From the NCBI GenBank assembly GCA_003140895.1, contig PLLH01000071.1:10067-53661 (forward strand): a DNA stretch of 43,595 bases, written 5' to 3'. The notes below the pieces were generated by a model. The model saw only the letters and a list, made by a program, of their open reading frames with translations. It searched no databases and was not told the DNA's origin. Positions 21,659-36,309 of the stretch are shown here, in pieces. The DNA comes from Elusimicrobiota bacterium (GTDB lineage Bacteria > Elusimicrobiota > Elusimicrobia > F11). The position numbers and the translations under genes are program-made. Each line of letters starts with the position of its first letter. Within the stretch, counting starts at the first letter, position 1.

Positions 21659-24600
21659 ATGAAGCGGAACCACCCACTGATCAAAACCGTCTCTCTGGTG
21701 CTTGTGACTTCCCTGTTCACGACGAACGTTCTCCTGGCGAACGCTCCGGAGCGTTATTGGTGGAATGATCGTCAAAAGCAACGGGAAACGTCTTCCCTTG
21801 AGGATGTGGCCCCTCTCCAATTGGCGCGCCTTCCGTCTGCGCTTCAGGGGTTCGCTCAACCTTCCCTGAACCGGGGCGTATCCTCCTTGTCTCCGGCATT
21901 ATTAAGGTCCCTCGGCCCATCGAAGGGGGGCGCGAATCAGAACGTTTCCTCGCTTCTTCAGTCTCTCTCCCCCTTGTTCGGCAATGTCCAATCCATTTCG
22001 ACGCCTTCGAAAGGGAATAATAAGGTTGTTGTTCATATCCAAGATGTTCATATGAACGCCGAGGCCCAAGCCAATATCGAACAAACCGTGAAAGCCGTTG
22101 TGGAGCAGAATAAGGTTGATGTGGTGGCGTTGGAGGGGGCTTTCGGCGAGTTGGGAGTTGAACGTGTCCGCCGGTTTTATCATCAGGGGACCATTAAGGC
22201 CGTGGCGGATTATCTTCTAAAGAAGCAACTGATTTCCGGCCCCGTCCATTTTGCCATGACAAGTCCAACCGGCGTTCCGCCTTTCATTGGAGTGGATGAC
22301 CGCCGCCACTACGATGCCAACGTGGAGGCCTATAAAACGTCGGCGCCGCTCAGCGACCTGGTTCAAAAGCAATTGGCCCAAGCCGAAGCAACCCTTGTTT
22401 CCAAAAAGAAACAGGTATTCAACTCCGCTCTTCTTTCATTTGATGCCGCCCTTCAATCGGTTCATCGTGATGATTCGACTTTGAGCGACACCATTCGATT
22501 TCTGGCCAGCCGGACCGACGACATCTCCACTCAGATGGAAGTCTTTTTGGAAGCGTTGAAGATGGAGAAATCCATGGATTTCTCCCGCGTGGAAGCGGAG
22601 CGGACGAGCCTACTCAAAAATCTTGTCGGGAAACTTCAAAAGAAACAAATTGATTCTCTCGTTCAACAAAGCGCGGCGGTCCGGATGGGGCTTCTCCGGC
22701 CCTCTGACTTTTATTCGTCGTTAAAATCGATCTGCGAGTCGTGCGGCATTTCTTTGGCGCAGTACCGCGCGATGAACAGCTACATCCAATATATTCTTCT
22801 TTCCGATGCCGTTAACCCGGATCGTCTCATTGACGAGGCCGCCCAGGTTGAGAAATCTCTTTACGCCTCCTTAATTCAATCACGAGAAGAACAATTTTTC
22901 ATCGACCGATCTCACGCCCTTTCACTGACGAGGAAACTCATCAACTTCTCTCTCACTCAGAAGGAGTGGGGGGAATATAAAGAACTAGTTCCCAGTGCCC
23001 GGTGCCCAGTGCCCAGCGGGAACATCCTCGCTTCGTTCGAATCTTTCTACTCTGAAGCCGAAGAGCGCGATGCCGCCATTTCAAAGAATTTATTGAGCCG
23101 TATGGAAGAAAAAAACGCCTCGGTGGCGGTTTTGGTCACGGGCGGCTTCCATTCGTCCGGTGTGGCGGCGGCCATGAAACAAGCCGGGTTCACCACGATT
23201 ACTTTTTCTCCCAAAATAACGAAAGTCGAGAAAGACGGCGGAACCGGTTATCTCAGCGTCTTCTCTCAAGAAAAGACCCCGCTGGATAAGTTATTCGCGG
23301 GAGAAAAGTTATTCTTATCTCCTTCTCCCGAAGCCAACCCTCTACTGACGGCCAGCCTCATGACGGGTGTCTATTCGGCAATCCCTGGACCTCATCAATT
23401 TTTAGATAGGGATGCGTTTAATCAGGTCTCTCCTCTTTCCGGTTTGACCGCCCACGTGGACGAGACGTCCTCGGGAAATCGCGTAACGGTTGAAGGCTCC
23501 AACGCGCCTGTGTCGATTGACGTAACGTTGGATCGGGCCGGTCTTTCACCCGGTGAGGCGCCGACGTTGATCAATCATTCGATCGTGCCGCCAGTATCGG
23601 TTCTTCATGTTTTATCTGTCATTAAACAATGGATGGCCCGCCGCTTCGCCCCGATGCAATTGATTCGTGTCGTGTTGCCGGTGCTTTTGTTTTTCGGGTT
23701 GACCCACATCGCGTTGGGGAGCGTTGGGGATTATGACTACACAAATTATTATCCGGTGGCGCCGGCTCCAACGCAGGCTTCGCCAACGGATGTATCGCAA
23801 ACCCTTCAAAACCTGATGTCGTGGGCCCATAACATCGATTGGTCTCAGTTTCGCACGCCTCTCTTGTTCGCCTTCGTTTTTTCCGTGGTCAGCTATCTCC
23901 TCAAGGCGCTCAAGTTTGCCGCTCACGCCGCGGCGGCGTTGGGAGCGGGGCTGATTTACGCGAATTATGACGCGGTGGTGGCGGCGGGGGTCCGGTTCTG
24001 GCCTCAGACCGCCCTTCAATTCGGCGTTGTGTTGCCGTCGTTGATCGTTCTGTTTATCGTCGGGAGCCGTCACATCAAGAACACGGAAAATCCGGCGGTG
24101 CCGTTGTTGTGGACGGCTGAGGTGGTTCTTTTTGGAGTTCTTCTATCCATGATTGAAAATCAGCCGCTGGCGGTCACCTCAAATATGGTTTGGCTTTCTG
24201 TGGCGGGGGTCCTCTTTACGGTGATGTATGTGGCTGGGGCCGGCCTCCAATATGTGTCCAAAAATTTCCCCGTCCATTTGTTCGTGATCCTTACGGCCCT
24301 GGTGGCCGGGTATCGGTTTCAGAATAAATTGCCGCCGGGAGACTCCGTCCGAACGCAGATGGAGCAAATGGAAAGCCAAGTGATGGAGAAAATTCCGCAG
24401 ATTGACGTTGAGAAGTTGCCGGGGCAGATTCCGTATATTAATGAAACGCCTGAGCGGCAACAACAAGCCAAGAGCTTTTTGGATTACGTTCTGTCTGGTT
24501 TTAAAATGCTTCTTATCGGATTTGTGGGATGGAATTTGATAGGGGGAACGTCATACGCGGCGGAAATCGGTTCTTCAAGCTTTCCCTCGGTTGCCGCCAG

Positions 24601-27600
24601 TTCCATGCCATGGTGGACGTGGCTTTTGGGCCCCGCTTTCGTTATGTCGTTTTTATATCGAAGTCATAACAATCCTTTTGATGAAGATCCTCTTTCCAAT
24701 ATCTCCTCCGCCGCCGCTGAACTCCTTGACCTTGATTTGAATGATCGGATCAATGTTGAGAAGTTGATGGATCATCTCGCGTATTTTTATCCAGAGAACC
24801 TTGAAAATCCGACGCCCCGGGAGATAACGCAGCCGCTCTCGTGGACGAAGCGCCTATATGAGGAGTTCGACGAGCACCGCGCTGAATTTATCCCGGAACT
24901 TGAAAAGATAATCAGGAGACAGTTTCTTGGGGAGCCATGGGAGATTTTTCAGAAATTGGTGGCTGCTAAACTCATTTTGCATGATGCGGAGCAAACTGGC
25001 GATTTATCAGAGCGAGATCACCTCCTGGCCAAGCTTGTTGATTTGGCTCAGAAAAGAAAGGCGTCGGAATTAAATAAATCCGAGGCGTTGTTCTTGGAAG
25101 GTCTCTTGTATTTGTTTGTGGATTTGGCGGATCGGGATGACGCGGTATGGCAGACAATCAAGCCTTTCTTGCTCGAAGAGCTGCATTCAGGCCGATTCGC
25201 TGTTGCCTATACCGAAGAGAAGGACGTGTACTCATTCCCTGTGTTCTTGCAGGTTCTGGATCAATTGCCGCGGCGTCTCAAAAGCGATCGGGACCTGATT
25301 TCGCAGGTCTCGCGACTCTTCACTCAATCCGATAACGAGATATCAAAATCGGTTTTGTCCGCCGTGGCTCTTATGGCGCCAGAAGACGGCTTCCCTCTCT
25401 TAAAAGAAAACATCGAGACAAAAAATATTCCCCATATGGGTCCGATGGTCGCTGCTTCTGAAATTCTGGCTGGGTATAATGACGTATTTCTTCGGGCTCA
25501 AGATGGATTCGCTGACTGGATTGTCGCTCAGCTTAATGCGGAAGGGTCAGTTGAAGTGCAGTATAAGCTCAATTTATTGAGTGCCTTATATAAGGTGGAC
25601 CGGTCGAAGATGACGGAGCAATTCGACACGTTAGTGAAGTCGGGTAAATTCGAAAAGGCACAATGGGCGCGCATAGCGACGTTTGCATCGGATTATAAGC
25701 TGAGCCTGCCGGAAATCCCGATGGACAGCCGCGGGTTCCCCTGGGGAAAGGCGACAGGCCTGGCCGTGTTTTTTCTGGCGTTGTCGCCGTTGTCCTCCTA
25801 TGGGGCTGAGGTTGTCCATGCCGTGACAGGGGCGGCGCACATTGTCGCGAATCATTCTGATTTATCGCTCCTATATTCACTTGCCGCTCTTGCCTCATGC
25901 TCCATTGTGGGGATGTTTGGTTTTGGACCGGCGGTAAGAAAATTTTCTCCAGATGAAAATTTAACTGTCATCATAAATTCTGATTCGTACGTTTTTCATA
26001 AGTTTCCGCCGCTGTTATTCGAAGCGATGAAAAGTAAGTTTAAAGCGGACAAGCAATACGATGATTTTACATTAGGGGCGGTGCTGCCTTATCAAATGAA
26101 TGCTCGGTTAACTTTGTTTGTCAGGGAAAACCCTCAACATCCTATTTCGCATCTCGATGTGGATTTAATCAAGGTCAAATATTTTGGCGGCCATGTCTAT
26201 TTGTTGGGAGCTGTGTTCAAGGGACACGTGATTCAACTTCCCCGAAGTACATCGTCACCTGTTGTGACGGGCCAGGCTAAGGCAACGAGCGGGGGGAATC
26301 CTCCTCATCATCAACCGATCCCATCTTCGCCTGTTCCTCACCAAAAGTTAAAACGCGTTGAGCCGCTGTATCCAGCGAAAGACGCGCCTTCAACGAAAAA
26401 ATCAGCTTCACCGCGTGAGGTGCCTCTGGTTTTTGGTTCGGATGCACAGGCGGTTGATTGGATGGAGCATCTCCTCGCGTATTATCAAAATCCGTCAACG
26501 GTCAAACCGAGTTCAAAACCAAAGACGGAATCGAAAAAGCCGGATGAGTTAACCATGGGAGATCTTTATAGCGATTTTATTAATCATCGGAAAATCCCAA
26601 GCGCCATCTATGACGAAATGTTCCGGGCTTTGCCAATAGGTGAGGTGATTTACCTGTGCATCCTCACTATTTATGAACGGAGCCCACAGACGGCTCAATA
26701 TGATAAACGGCATGCCTTGTTACATTCGAAACCGGCTCGCGCTATCAAATTTAATGATGGTGATCAGGTTCTCCATGGCGATGCGGCGAAAGTCCTGCGG
26801 CGATTAATCGCCATTTTGAAAGCAAGAGAGCAATTGGTGAAAACACAGGAGTACAAAGAGCTTGTGGGGTGGCATGCGGTTTTGGAGATGCGAGACCCCA
26901 GCAATAAGAACAATATCCGTAAAAAAGAACACCCAACTCCCGCTGAGAAAAATGAGAAATTAACTACTGGTGAGAACGTGATTGTTGATGATTTTAAACG
27001 GTTGTCGGCCAATCAGAAATTTAAGGATCTCGTTGAGAAAGACGAGAATGAATTTAAAAAATTAGAGCCCTTGATCAAGACGAAGATGGAGGCGTTGGAA
27101 TCGCAGCTCGATGTAAAACTGGCCGAACTTCTTCCCGAGGAAACAGCCATTCTTCCTCCTGGAATTTCCGGCGCCGTCGCCACGATTCTTCTCCTGTGGG
27201 TCCTGCCATTTTCCTTGGGAAATTTCAATGCGGCCTCTGTTCACCTGGCTCCTCTTGTTTTCGCGGTGTGGACGGGAGCTGTGGCGCTCGCCGGCTTTCT
27301 TATGATTCGAGCCCGGATGCCGAAGACAGCAACAGCTTCACCATCCGTGTTGGACCCGGCCGTCCGGATCATCGAACAAAACTTGATTGGGGATCTCGAT
27401 GGTCATTTGGCCGATCTCAATCGAAACGGGGTTGGATTGACGCAACTGAACTCGTCACAGATGTCAACGTTCATTGGCCGCATCAAAGCTCGATTTGTCG
27501 CAGATAAAACGTCCGCGCCGGATTGGGACGTCATCCAACAAAAAGTTTGGGACTTGGCCCTCTCAGGGAATGATTCTCAAGCTCTTCGAGGATTGGTGGC

Positions 27601-28057
27601 CGATAAGAACGTGAGTTTGGTTTTGGATCCATCATCCTTCGAAAAGAAAGAAATTCTGAAAGGGCTTCAATCTCTGGCGGAGGCATTGTCACCGAGCAGG
27701 ATGTTGTACGTGATTACGAATAAATCGGATAGCGCGCGCATGAAATCCATCCGGCAGAATAATATTGTTTTGTTAACCTCAAATGAGGGGAGCAATGTGA
27801 TTGACGGCTCTGATATAGATGTCGATGTGTTGGAGGGTGTTCTTTCGGCTCCGCAGCATCGCATCGATATGTCCAATCTCGTGGCGCTTCTGGCTCCCGG
27901 TGTTGGATTTAAAAAGTCAGAAGATTTGGATGTTAAACTCCGCCAGTTGGGCCTCACCTGGATTCGTCTCCAGGATTGGTTGAGCGGGATCCCCGTTAGC
28001 CCGCTTGGCGTGGGGAATATCATCGAAACGGCCTTGGCCACGCTTATTAACGCCTAA
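21659..28057 (+). CDS. Giant secreted/membrane protein with ChaN/TraB-like N-terminal domain
   Basis: An unbroken 2132-codon ORF. Residues 9-28 are a signal or anchor. The ChaN/TraB-like domain (about 120-553) has HIQDVHMN (126-133), ALEGAFG (157-163) and VTGGFHSSGV (493-502), and is closely similar to that of the gene at 7083-16337 down to KTPLDKLFAGEKLFLSP. Then come a Pro-rich region, a polytopic stretch of about six helices (668-890), a helix pair (945-1000), a long helical, solenoid-like segment (1020-1345), another helix pair (1363-1422), a Pro/Ser/Lys-rich disordered stretch (1530-1630), a charged helical region, a last helix pair (1838-1883) and an unassigned C-terminal domain. No methyltransferase or YdcF domain is seen. 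AAGGA precedes the ATG. Function unknown; the shared domain suggests partnership or shared substrate with its paralog. Confidence 0.88.
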   Translation: MKRNHPLIKTVSLVLVTSLFTTNVLLANAPERYWWNDRQKQRETSSLEDVAPLQLARLPSALQGFAQPSLNRGVSSLSPALLRSLGPSKGGANQNVSSLLQSLSPLFGNVQSISTPSKGNNKVVVHIQDVHMNAEAQANIEQTVKAVVEQNKVDVVALEGAFGELGVERVRRFYHQGTIKAVADYLLKKQLISGPVHFAMTSPTGVPPFIGVDDRRHYDANVEAYKTSAPLSDLVQKQLAQAEATLVSKKKQVFNSALLSFDAALQSVHRDDSTLSDTIRFLASRTDDISTQMEVFLEALKMEKSMDFSRVEAERTSLLKNLVGKLQKKQIDSLVQQSAAVRMGLLRPSDFYSSLKSICESCGISLAQYRAMNSYIQYILLSDAVNPDRLIDEAAQVEKSLYASLIQSREEQFFIDRSHALSLTRKLINFSLTQKEWGEYKELVPSARCPVPSGNILASFESFYSEAEERDAAISKNLLSRMEEKNASVAVLVTGGFHSSGVAAAMKQAGFTTITFSPKITKVEKDGGTGYLSVFSQEKTPLDKLFAGEKLFLSPSPEANPLLTASLMTGVYSAIPGPHQFLDRDAFNQVSPLSGLTAHVDETSSGNRVTVEGSNAPVSIDVTLDRAGLSPGEAPTLINHSIVPPVSVLHVLSVIKQWMARRFAPMQLIRVVLPVLLFFGLTHIALGSVGDYDYTNYYPVAPAPTQASPTDVSQTLQNLMSWAHNIDWSQFRTPLLFAFVFSVVSYLLKALKFAAHAAAALGAGLIYANYDAVVAAGVRFWPQTALQFGVVLPSLIVLFIVGSRHIKNTENPAVPLLWTAEVVLFGVLLSMIENQPLAVTSNMVWLSVAGVLFTVMYVAGAGLQYVSKNFPVHLFVILTALVAGYRFQNKLPPGDSVRTQMEQMESQVMEKIPQIDVEKLPGQIPYINETPERQQQAKSFLDYVLSGFKMLLIGFVGWNLIGGTSYAAEIGSSSFPSVAASSMPWWTWLLGPAFVMSFLYRSHNNPFDEDPLSNISSAAAELLDLDLNDRINVEKLMDHLAYFYPENLENPTPREITQPLSWTKRLYEEFDEHRAEFIPELEKIIRRQFLGEPWEIFQKLVAAKLILHDAEQTGDLSERDHLLAKLVDLAQKRKASELNKSEALFLEGLLYLFVDLADRDDAVWQTIKPFLLEELHSGRFAVAYTEEKDVYSFPVFLQVLDQLPRRLKSDRDLISQVSRLFTQSDNEISKSVLSAVALMAPEDGFPLLKENIETKNIPHMGPMVAASEILAGYNDVFLRAQDGFADWIVAQLNAEGSVEVQYKLNLLSALYKVDRSKMTEQFDTLVKSGKFEKAQWARIATFASDYKLSLPEIPMDSRGFPWGKATGLAVFFLALSPLSSYGAEVVHAVTGAAHIVANHSDLSLLYSLAALASCSIVGMFGFGPAVRKFSPDENLTVIINSDSYVFHKFPPLLFEAMKSKFKADKQYDDFTLGAVLPYQMNARLTLFVRENPQHPISHLDVDLIKVKYFGGHVYLLGAVFKGHVIQLPRSTSSPVVTGQAKATSGGNPPHHQPIPSSPVPHQKLKRVEPLYPAKDAPSTKKSASPREVPLVFGSDAQAVDWMEHLLAYYQNPSTVKPSSKPKTESKKPDELTMGDLYSDFINHRKIPSAIYDEMFRALPIGEVIYLCILTIYERSPQTAQYDKRHALLHSKPARAIKFNDGDQVLHGDAAKVLRRLIAILKAREQLVKTQEYKELVGWHAVLEMRDPSNKNNIRKKEHPTPAEKNEKLTTGENVIVDDFKRLSANQKFKDLVEKDENEFKKLEPLIKTKMEALESQLDVKLAELLPEETAILPPGISGAVATILLLWVLPFSLGNFNAASVHLAPLVFAVWTGAVALAGFLMIRARMPKTATASPSVLDPAVRIIEQNLIGDLDGHLADLNRNGVGLTQLNSSQMSTFIGRIKARFVADKTSAPDWDVIQQKVWDLALSGNDSQALRGLVADKNVSLVLDPSSFEKKEILKGLQSLAEALSPSRMLYVITNKSDSARMKSIRQNNIVLLTSNEGSNVIDGSDIDVDVLEGVLSAPQHRIDMSNLVALLAPGVGFKKSEDLDVKLRQLGLTWIRLQDWLSGIPVSPLGVGNIIETALATLINA
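22991..23018 (+). repeat. Heptanucleotide tandem repeat, four units, inside the second giant gene
   Basis: Four 7-mers read CCCAGTG, CCCGGTG, CCCAGTG, CCCAGCG (28 bp). They encode the variable stretch between KEWGEYKE and SFESFYSEAEE, the same place in the domain where the other giant gene carries its own heptamer array. The unit resembles the heptanucleotide STRR repeats known from heterocystous cyanobacteria. Copy-number change by one would shift the frame. Confidence 0.75.
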
Positions 28058-33958: not shown

Positions 33959-33988
33959 TTGACAGGCGGATTTGAAGCTTGTTATAAA
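33959..33988 (+). promoter_or_regulatory. Sigma-70-type promoter of glnN
   Basis: TTGACA (33959-33964), 18-bp spacer, TATAAA (33983-33988). It starts 15 bp past the GH57 stop. The predicted transcription start (about 33994) lies at the first base of the leader hairpin region. Confidence 0.75.
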
Positions 33989-33993
33989 GGCAG

Positions 33994-34066
33994 GCGTCGC
34001 AATGAAGCGGCTGTTTTTTTAGGCAACGAGGCCTTTTCCTCACGTGAGGAGAAGGCTTTTTTTTTT
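33994..34066 (+). promoter_or_regulatory. ANTAR-type two-hairpin antitermination leader of glnN
   Basis: Hairpin 1 is GTCGC-AATGAA-GCGGC (33996-34011); after a T-rich linker (34012-34020) hairpin 2 is AGGC-AACGAG-GCCT (34021-34034). Both hexaloops have A at position 1 and G at position 4, the specificity bases of ANTAR-binding RNAs. The 3' arm of hairpin 2 is also the 5' arm of the terminator (34031-34066), so the two structures exclude each other. Known ANTAR regulators (NasR, EutV) bind such pairs and prevent termination. No ANTAR protein is encoded in the window. Confidence 0.8.
34031..34066 (+). terminator. Intrinsic terminator/attenuator in the glnN leader
   Basis: Stem GCCTTTTCCTCA with TGAGGAGAAGGC (34031-34056, tight loop at ACGT) followed by ten T (34057-34066). 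It lies between the glnN promoter and the gene, 56 bp before the ATG. Confidence 0.85.
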
Positions 34067-34122
34067 GTCACGAGAAGAATTTTCTGTCATTTCTTAAAAA
34101 ATAAATTGAAGAGAGGAAGGAT

Positions 34123-36309
34123 ATGAGCATATTAAAAGATGTCACAAAAGCGATCGAATCATCGAACGGCAACGGGCAATTGAAATCAAGAGTGTCCGCT
34201 CTTGTTTCAGGAGCCGAGATAACGGAGATTTTCGGGTCCAACGTATTTAATGATCGAGTCATGAAAGAAAGGCTCCCGAAAGATACGTACAAAGCCCTCA
34301 AAAAGACCATGGAACAAGGCGCTCCCTTGACGTTGGAAGTAGCCAACGTCGTGGCGAATGCCATGAAAGACTGGGCCATTGAGAAAGGGGCCACGCACTA
34401 CACCCACTGGTTCCAACCGTTGACCGGGAAAACGGCTGAAAAACACGATTCCTTCATTTCTCCGACGACGGATGGCGGCGTCGTGATGGAATTTTCAGGT
34501 AAACAGCTGGCTCAAGGCGAGCCGGATGCCTCCTCTTTTCCCAGTGGCGGTCTTCGGGCGACCTTTGAAGCTCGTGGCTACACGGCGTGGGATTGCACCT
34601 CACCCGCCTTTTTAAAAGAGGACTCGGCCGGAAACGTCACCCTTTGCATCCCGACGGCCTTCTGTTCCTATACCGGAGAAGCGCTGGATAAAAAAGTCCC
34701 TTTGCTTCGGTCCATGGAAGCGGTGTCGAAGCAGGCGATGCGTGTTTTGAAAGGCTTAGGAAACAAAACAGCCACTCGCGTCACGGCGACTGTGGGGCCG
34801 GAGCAAGAATATTTCCTCATTGATAAGGGGTATTTTGATCGGCGGATTGATTTGATCATGGCCGGGCGAACCCTGTTTGGCGCACCTTCACCGAAAGGCC
34901 AGGAAATGGAAGATCAGTACTTCGGCGCGATCAAAGACCGTATTTCTTCTTTCATGAAAGACTTGGACATTGAATTGTGGAAAATGGGCGTTTTGTCCAA
35001 GACGAAGCATAATGAAGTGGCTCCCGCTCAATACGAGATGGCTCCCATCTTCTCCACAACGAATATTGCGGCTGACCATAATCAGCTTGTGATGGAAACC
35101 ATGCAGAAAGTGGCGCTCCGCCATGGCCTTGTTTGCTTACTCCATGAAAAACCGTTTGGGGGCGTGAATGGGTCGGGCAAGCACAACAATTGGTCGCTGG
35201 CGACGGATGACGGCTTCAACCTGTTGGAACCGGGAAGCACGCCTCACGAAAACGAGCAATTCCTTATTTTTGTGGCTGCCTTGCTCACGGCCGTGGATCG
35301 ACATGCGGACATGCTGAGGGCCGGCATTGCCACCCCTGGTAATGATCTTCGGTTGGGCGCCAATGAAGCGCCGCCGGCCATCGTCTCCATGTTTATGGGG
35401 GAGGAATTGACGGAAATTCTCCAAAATATCGCCAAAGGTAAAAAGACGGTGGCGCGGGGGCAGAAGTTTCTTCATATCGGCATCGATACGATGCCGCCCC
35501 TCCCGAAAGATAACACGGACCGAAACCGGACCTCGCCCTTTGCTTTCACCGGCAATAAGTTCGAATTTCGGATGGTGGGGGCATCGGCGTCTATCTCCGG
35601 AGTGAATGTGATCCTCAATACGATTGTGGCTGAAACGCTGGATGAAATCGCGACGCGTTTGGAGAAAGCGAAGGATAAACATAAAGAAGCGGCCGCCATT
35701 CTTAAAGCGGCGGTGATCAAGCACAGCCGCGTCATTTATAACGGCAACAATTACACGGACGAATGGGTGAGAGAAGCGAATCGGAGGGGACTCCCCAATA
35801 TCCGCTCCACAGTGGAAGCGTTGGCGGCCATGGCGACCCCTCAAGCGGAAAAACTCTTCTCGAAATATAAGGTTCTTTCGAAAGGAGAGCTTCACTCTCG
35901 CTATGAGATCTATTTGGAGCATTACGCGAAGACCATCAACATTGAAGCGATGGCGGCCATTGATATGGTGAGGAAGCTCTATATCCCCGCGGTCGTGGAG
36001 TTCACCGGACAACTGGCCCAAACGGTTGCTTCCCTTGAAGAGGTGTCGGCTTCATCGGAAATCCAGAAGTCATTGCTGGACAGTGTTTCTTCGCTTCTGG
36101 AAGCTGCCTCTGAAAAGCTCCACGCGTTGGAAGTGGCCACGAAGAAAGCTCAGGACATCAAAGAAGCGAAGGCGAAAGCCGAAGCGTATCGCGATAGAGT
36201 GTTTGTTGCGATGGGCGAACTGAGGTCTGAGATCGATGCGTTGGAGGGACTGATGCCTCGATCCTTGTGGCCGGTCCCAACCTATGCCGATATGTTGTTT
36301 AACCTATAA
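34123..36309 (+). CDS. glnN: Glutamine synthetase type III
   Basis: Makes glutamine from glutamate, ammonia and ATP in the cytoplasm as a large dodecamer. At 728 residues it fits GSIII, not GSI or GSII. Landmarks: [11 protein letters not shown] (near 85), [12 protein letters not shown] (near 225, metal-binding glutamates), [16 protein letters not shown] (near 300), [13 protein letters not shown] (near 350) and [16 protein letters not shown] (near 470). The ATG at 34123 follows GAGAGGAAGG. A strong promoter and an ANTAR-type attenuator precede it, so it is likely controlled by nitrogen supply at the level of transcription termination. A strong terminator follows. Confidence 0.97.

Follow-up and report, generated by a model that had tools for sequence, protein, structure and literature searches.

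A predicted ANTAR-responsive transcription antitermination leader upstream of glnN, the gene for a type III glutamine synthetase

Introduction

The ANTAR dual-hairpin RNA motif was defined by Ramesh et al. in 2012 (PMC3369931), and the main text of that study places it before P-II, ammonium transporter and glutamine/glutamate synthase genes of diverse bacteria, with no GAF-ANTAR protein presented there as characterised at that time. In the eut leaders of E. faecalis, which belong to the EutV system, two hairpins with hexanucleotide loops that carry A at position 1 and G at position 4 (A1/G4 hexaloops) are separated, according to the same text, by linkers of 5–12 nt (PMC3369931), and the 3′ arm of the second hairpin lies in the 5′ arm of a terminator. 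Dual-hexaloop antitermination also operates at the Klebsiella oxytoca nasF leader, where the ANTAR protein NasR acts on nitrogen assimilation genes. More recently, the EutV-RNA structure provided the RNA-contact residues of EutV and redefined the minimal ANTAR site as one hexaloop (PMC8934654). Rv1626 is another ANTAR protein of solved structure.

Here we have analysed a DNA stretch of 43,595 nt (the window) that contains glnN, encoding a type III glutamine synthetase (GSIII). A previous sequence-only reading had proposed that the region upstream of glnN is an antitermination leader under ANTAR control. By combining folding, pattern searches, covariance modelling and a comparison of related genomes, we find it highly probable that the glnN leader is indeed an ANTAR-responsive transcription antitermination leader.

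Results

The glnN product is the sole glutamine synthetase of the genome, in which PF00120 has a single match. This genome comprises 118 contigs totalling 2.53 Mb (99.8% complete), and named relatives of its GSIII assign the window to Candidatus Omnitrophota. Inspection of the sequence together with folding recovered all the elements that the sequence-only reading had described upstream of glnN, namely a promoter, two A1/G4 hexaloop hairpins (P1 and P2), two copies of the extended motif GCAAYGARGC and a strong ten-T terminator that incorporates the 3′ arm of P2 in its own 5′ arm (Table 1). Our terminator/promoter scan omits this promoter because its second hexamer lacks the T that the scan demands at position 6; from the promoter position, the transcript is predicted to start at ∼33993–33996.

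Table 1. Coordinates of glnN and its leader elements in the window
Feature	Position	Strand	Description	Basis
Promoter, sigma-70 type	33959..33988	+	near-consensus; −35 TTGACA (33959–33964), 18-nt spacer, −10 TATAAA (33983–33988)	sequence read by eye
P1 hairpin	33996..34011	+	GTCGC[AATGAA]GCGGC, 5-bp stem, A1/G4 hexaloop	sequence, folding, scan, model R1
Linker	34012..34020	+	TGTTTTTTT, 9 nt	sequence
P2 hairpin (predicted antiterminator)	34021..34034	+	AGGC[AACGAG]GCCT, 4-bp stem, A1/G4 hexaloop; 3′ arm GCCT (34031–34034) contained in terminator 5′ arm	sequence, folding, model R1
Intrinsic terminator	34031..34066	+	stem GCCTTTTCCTC-ACGT-GAGGAGAAGGC (34031–34056), then T10 (34057–34066)	sequence, folding, scans
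Ribosome-binding site	34113..34120	+	GAGGAAGG	sequence reading
glnN (GSIII)	34123..36309	+	728 aa	Pfam GSIII_N 6e-82

Both stem-loops exceed the 3 bp required of ANTAR RNA hairpins and present hexanucleotide loops with A1 and G4, although P2 is merely 4 bp long in the glnN leader and is 3 bp long or bulged in several other leaders of the genome. The length of the linker falls within the functional range of the eut leaders, whereas that of the amt leader of the same genome deviates (∼28 nt). When the P1–P2 segment was folded alone, it formed two hairpins with 6-nt loops, with a folding no better than that of shuffled sequences (z about 0). Inclusion of the terminator 3′ arm caused the terminator to displace P2 (−32.1 kcal/mol, z −3.7), and the two folds exclude each other. 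The full composite, that is, two A1/G4 hexaloops followed by a P2-overlapping terminator, was present once when both strands of the window were scanned; among 300 dinucleotide-shuffled versions of the entire window, scanned on one strand, 2 contained it. Elsewhere in the window (21659–28057), an open reading frame of 2132 aa, hydrophobic over several stretches, lies upstream of two receiver-domain proteins.

The absence of an ANTAR gene near glnN had led to the prediction of a regulator acting in trans, and the genome search did yield a single ANTAR protein scoring above the Pfam cut-off, encoded away from glnN (contig C10, 5079–6287). This protein of 402 aa has a GAF-GAF-ANTAR architecture, its PF03861 domain scoring 72 bits against a cut-off of 27.3. 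Alignment with EutV showed that the equivalents of R142, K143, K147, K149, E160, M172 and R175 are kept, while a Phe replaces Tyr164, the residue stacking on G4, and R168, N173 and R177 are changed to Q, D and S, respectively; Rv1626 has the same Phe and also differs at these three positions. The protein qualifies as an ANTAR-domain member both by PF03861 and, in this alignment, by its RNA-contact residues. Its gene is directly followed by that of a glutamine-dependent NAD synthetase, nadE (L004:5079–7932), and we looked for an autoregulatory motif upstream of it and found none. Adjacency of a GAF-GAF-ANTAR gene to nadE, in varying gene order, recurs in at least nine further genomes from families f1, f4 and f5 (loci L117, L123, L127, L128, L129, L136, L137, L139 and L145), and in other families the gene is located between secA and lnt.

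Further leaders were sought in the same genome with two patterns, a P2 hexaloop before a T-run and the P2 core GGCAANGARGCC, so that candidates were retrieved by pattern and not by gene. Three leaders were found, all of them sharing the P2–terminator design of the glnN leader, and two of them precede amt-glnK and a P-II operon, the kinds of gene at which the sequence-only reading had suggested looking. The first (contig C106) carries P1 CCGC[AAAGAA]GCGG, P2 GGC[AAAGAA]GCC and a terminator, followed by the Amt and P-II genes of amt-glnK. The second contains three tandem hexaloop–terminator modules (L242:1630–1835) and precedes an operon on contig C11 whose genes encode a permease fused to a P-II domain, a separate P-II protein and another permease. 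The third, with two tandem modules (L241:1965–2085), is located before a BBP2 porin gene on contig C32. Tandem modules in series upstream of one operon should make control in the off state tighter. The fused P-II domain lies at the C-terminus of an amino-acid permease whose gene is followed by a free P-II gene (L242:1865–3739), an arrangement suggesting that transport may be gated directly by nitrogen status. The remaining matches to GGCAANGARGCC (contigs C1, C12, C16, C73, C76, C83, C85 and C92) were discarded because they had no terminator. A pattern of GC-closed hairpin pairs was also discarded as a discriminator on its own, since it gave 8 matches in the genome, fewer than the 30 in the control, and a terminator at the glnN leader only. 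The search rested on these patterns and on the covariance model described below, and members may be missed.

A covariance model (R1) was built from nine leaders. In its alignment, 92% of the cells were paired compared with at most 44% when the structure was slid, a covariation that is biased upward because the sequences had been picked partly for having hairpins; A1 and G4 were invariant across the aligned leaders while the stems varied. The top four R1 matches in the genome were the glnN, permease/P-II, amt and porin leaders (E values from 7.6e-5 to 0.019, the next being 5), all of them training members. Leaders outside the training set provide a stronger test. In the same family, such matches with P2 overlapping a terminator comprised the amt leader of genome G001, the leader of the porin orthologue in G002 and, in G003, the leaders of a type-I glutamine synthetase gene and of one further gene, the G003 genes being arranged as GAF-ANTAR, gltB, leader, glnA and second leader. 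Matches in G003 (contig C93), G081, G040 and G002 (contig C146) were rejected since they lay within coding sequence or had no terminator. The two outcomes that the sequence-only reading had named as refuting it, a genome lacking any ANTAR protein or orthologous leaders that lose the hexaloops and the overlap, were not observed. Within the family, the GSIII leader of G002 keeps both hairpins and the terminator, and that of G001 keeps the A1/G4 hexaloop of P2 and the overlapping terminator. Conservation has two limits: P1 is not canonical in G001, and in other families the leaders have one hexaloop only or differ in geometry. In 40 other genomes, 20 of them ANTAR-positive and from other families, R1 found nothing below an E value of 0.1, so the exact R1-type form belongs mainly to family f1.

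The different geometry, undetected by R1, was observed in families f16, f19, f21 and f25. It consists of a hairpin GGAC[ANNGNN]GTCC whose 3′ arm lies inside the terminator, with a second hairpin in the terminator loop that is itself an A1/G4 hexaloop in f16 and f19. In f16, the element is located between the ANTAR gene and gltB (L149:895–950 and L151:1358–1420), and comparison of G005 with G021 showed differences at other loop positions but not at A1 and G4. Leaders with a single hexaloop were found in G281 (P2 only), G035, G044 and G081, which may fit the one-hexaloop minimal site of the EutV-RNA structure (PMC8934654), and the leader of G241 contains hexaloops and no terminator. In L041 and L044, which are records labelled as Deltaproteobacteria, GSIII is preceded by two conserved hairpins with A1/G4 hexaloops that lie ∼50 nt apart, have no evident terminator and are possibly another ANTAR form. 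The single-hexaloop relatives, the minimal site and the non-canonical P1 of G001 would agree with ANTAR control of glnN by another logic, in which a single hexaloop suffices or translation is affected as well. We consider this improbable, because the glnN leader has both hexaloops, a linker of functional length and the P2–terminator overlap, and its ribosome-binding site lies ∼50 nt past the terminator.

We compared leader structure with ANTAR gene content in 295 Omnitrophota genomes, 67 of which have ANTAR genes and 107 GSIII. Taking the last 300 nt of each of 91 GSIII leaders and requiring an A1/G4 hexaloop hairpin of at least 5 bp, we found such hairpins in 14 of the 27 leaders from ANTAR-positive genomes, the other 13 having none, and in 3 of the 64 from ANTAR-negative genomes, which is the chance level (Fisher 8e-7, genomes of one family not being independent). 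Before G003 was reclassified, 13/25 leaders from ANTAR-positive genomes had the hairpin (shuffle mean 1.1), as did 4/66 from ANTAR-negative genomes (shuffle mean 3.7). The positive leaders from ANTAR-positive genomes were spread over eight families, and within family f15 alone the figures were 2/4 for ANTAR-positive and 0/20 for ANTAR-negative genomes. These results show that the presence of an ANTAR gene predicts GSIII leader structure across Omnitrophota. A strict scan of 112 GSIII leaders for the dual-hexaloop and terminator composite gave 2 positives, partly because minus-strand loci were left unturned, and the composite was not found in GSIII leaders of Firmicutes and Spirochaetes.

The shuffle-level folding of P1 and P2 alone, and the fact that short hairpins are common, would also be compatible with a constitutive attenuator, that is, a real terminator on which no protein acts and hexaloops that are coincidental. 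This explanation is very unlikely, since the P2 core joined to a terminator is found again upstream of the amt, P-II and porin genes, the stems vary but A1 and G4 do not, and the hexaloops co-occur with the ANTAR gene across the phylum. Least credible of all is a small-molecule riboswitch or another RNA-binding regulator such as a PyrR-like protein working through the leader: the Rfam search gave no family at the gathering cut-off at the leader (only a tRNA in the whole window), and the weak PyrR match (30.2 bits, E 0.034) was rejected as far under the family cut-off of 54 and full of non-pairs, while the conserved residues are exactly those of ANTAR RNAs.

Discussion

Our preferred reading remains ANTAR-responsive antitermination at the glnN leader. 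In the default state, RNA polymerase that initiates at the predicted promoter would halt at the terminator, ending at 34066. The active GAF-GAF-ANTAR protein would bind the A1/G4 hexaloops, P1 and then P2, and P2 would sequester the terminator 5′ arm, allowing transcription of glnN. This protein would likewise open the leaders upstream of amt-glnK, the operon of the P-II-fused permease and the porin gene, and together the units would form one ammonium-acquisition regulon. Its GAF domains may take in a nitrogen-status or glutamine-linked signal. More broadly, we tentatively propose, with somewhat less than even confidence, that antitermination through GAF-ANTAR proteins responding to an intracellular signal is the main control of ammonium assimilation in Omnitrophota. 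In this view, several families would, besides the classical leader form, rely on one hexaloop alone or on a second arrangement: its first hexaloop hairpin would overlap the terminator, whose loop would be formed by another A1/G4 hexaloop or a different hairpin.

Together, these leaders would make up a coherent nitrogen regulon under one regulator that extends to the sole glutamine synthetase of the genome, and this in a phylum from which hardly any member has been cultured. With its RNA targets named, the GAF-ANTAR architecture becomes open to experimental testing, and the link between ANTAR presence and leader structure can help in annotating how uncultured bacteria control nitrogen genes. 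The alternative geometry of the relatives bears on the number of hexaloops, one or two, that are required.

The mechanism is already known elsewhere; what is new here is the phylum, the GSIII target and the GAF-ANTAR input, and our literature search found no paper treating ANTAR together with Omnitrophota. The application of the ANTAR rule to a GSIII gene is supported, although it is less novel than the sequence-only reading implied, since the main text of Ramesh et al. (PMC3369931) already lists glutamine synthase genes. With the eut leaders of E. faecalis, the glnN leader shares the paired A1/G4 hexaloops, the linker length and the position of the P2 3′ arm, and the RNA-contact residues of EutV are largely kept. 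In contrast to EutV, which has a phosphorylated receiver, the input here consists of two GAF domains, and instead of eut genes the targets are ammonium assimilation genes, with one unlinked protein for four scattered units. The nasF leader resembles the glnN leader in placing dual-hexaloop antitermination before nitrogen assimilation genes, but NasR is a NIT nitrate sensor, whereas here the protein is GAF-GAF-ANTAR and its gene is unlinked to the target. A further parallel is the nitrogen regulon predicted for Desulfotomaculum acetoxidans, for which the main text of the 2012 study (PMC3369931) reports many ANTAR leaders in one genome, several of them per unit, before P-II, amt, glutamine synthase and glutamate synthase genes; the regulons of that study belong to other phyla, and its main text names neither GSIII nor Omnitrophota.
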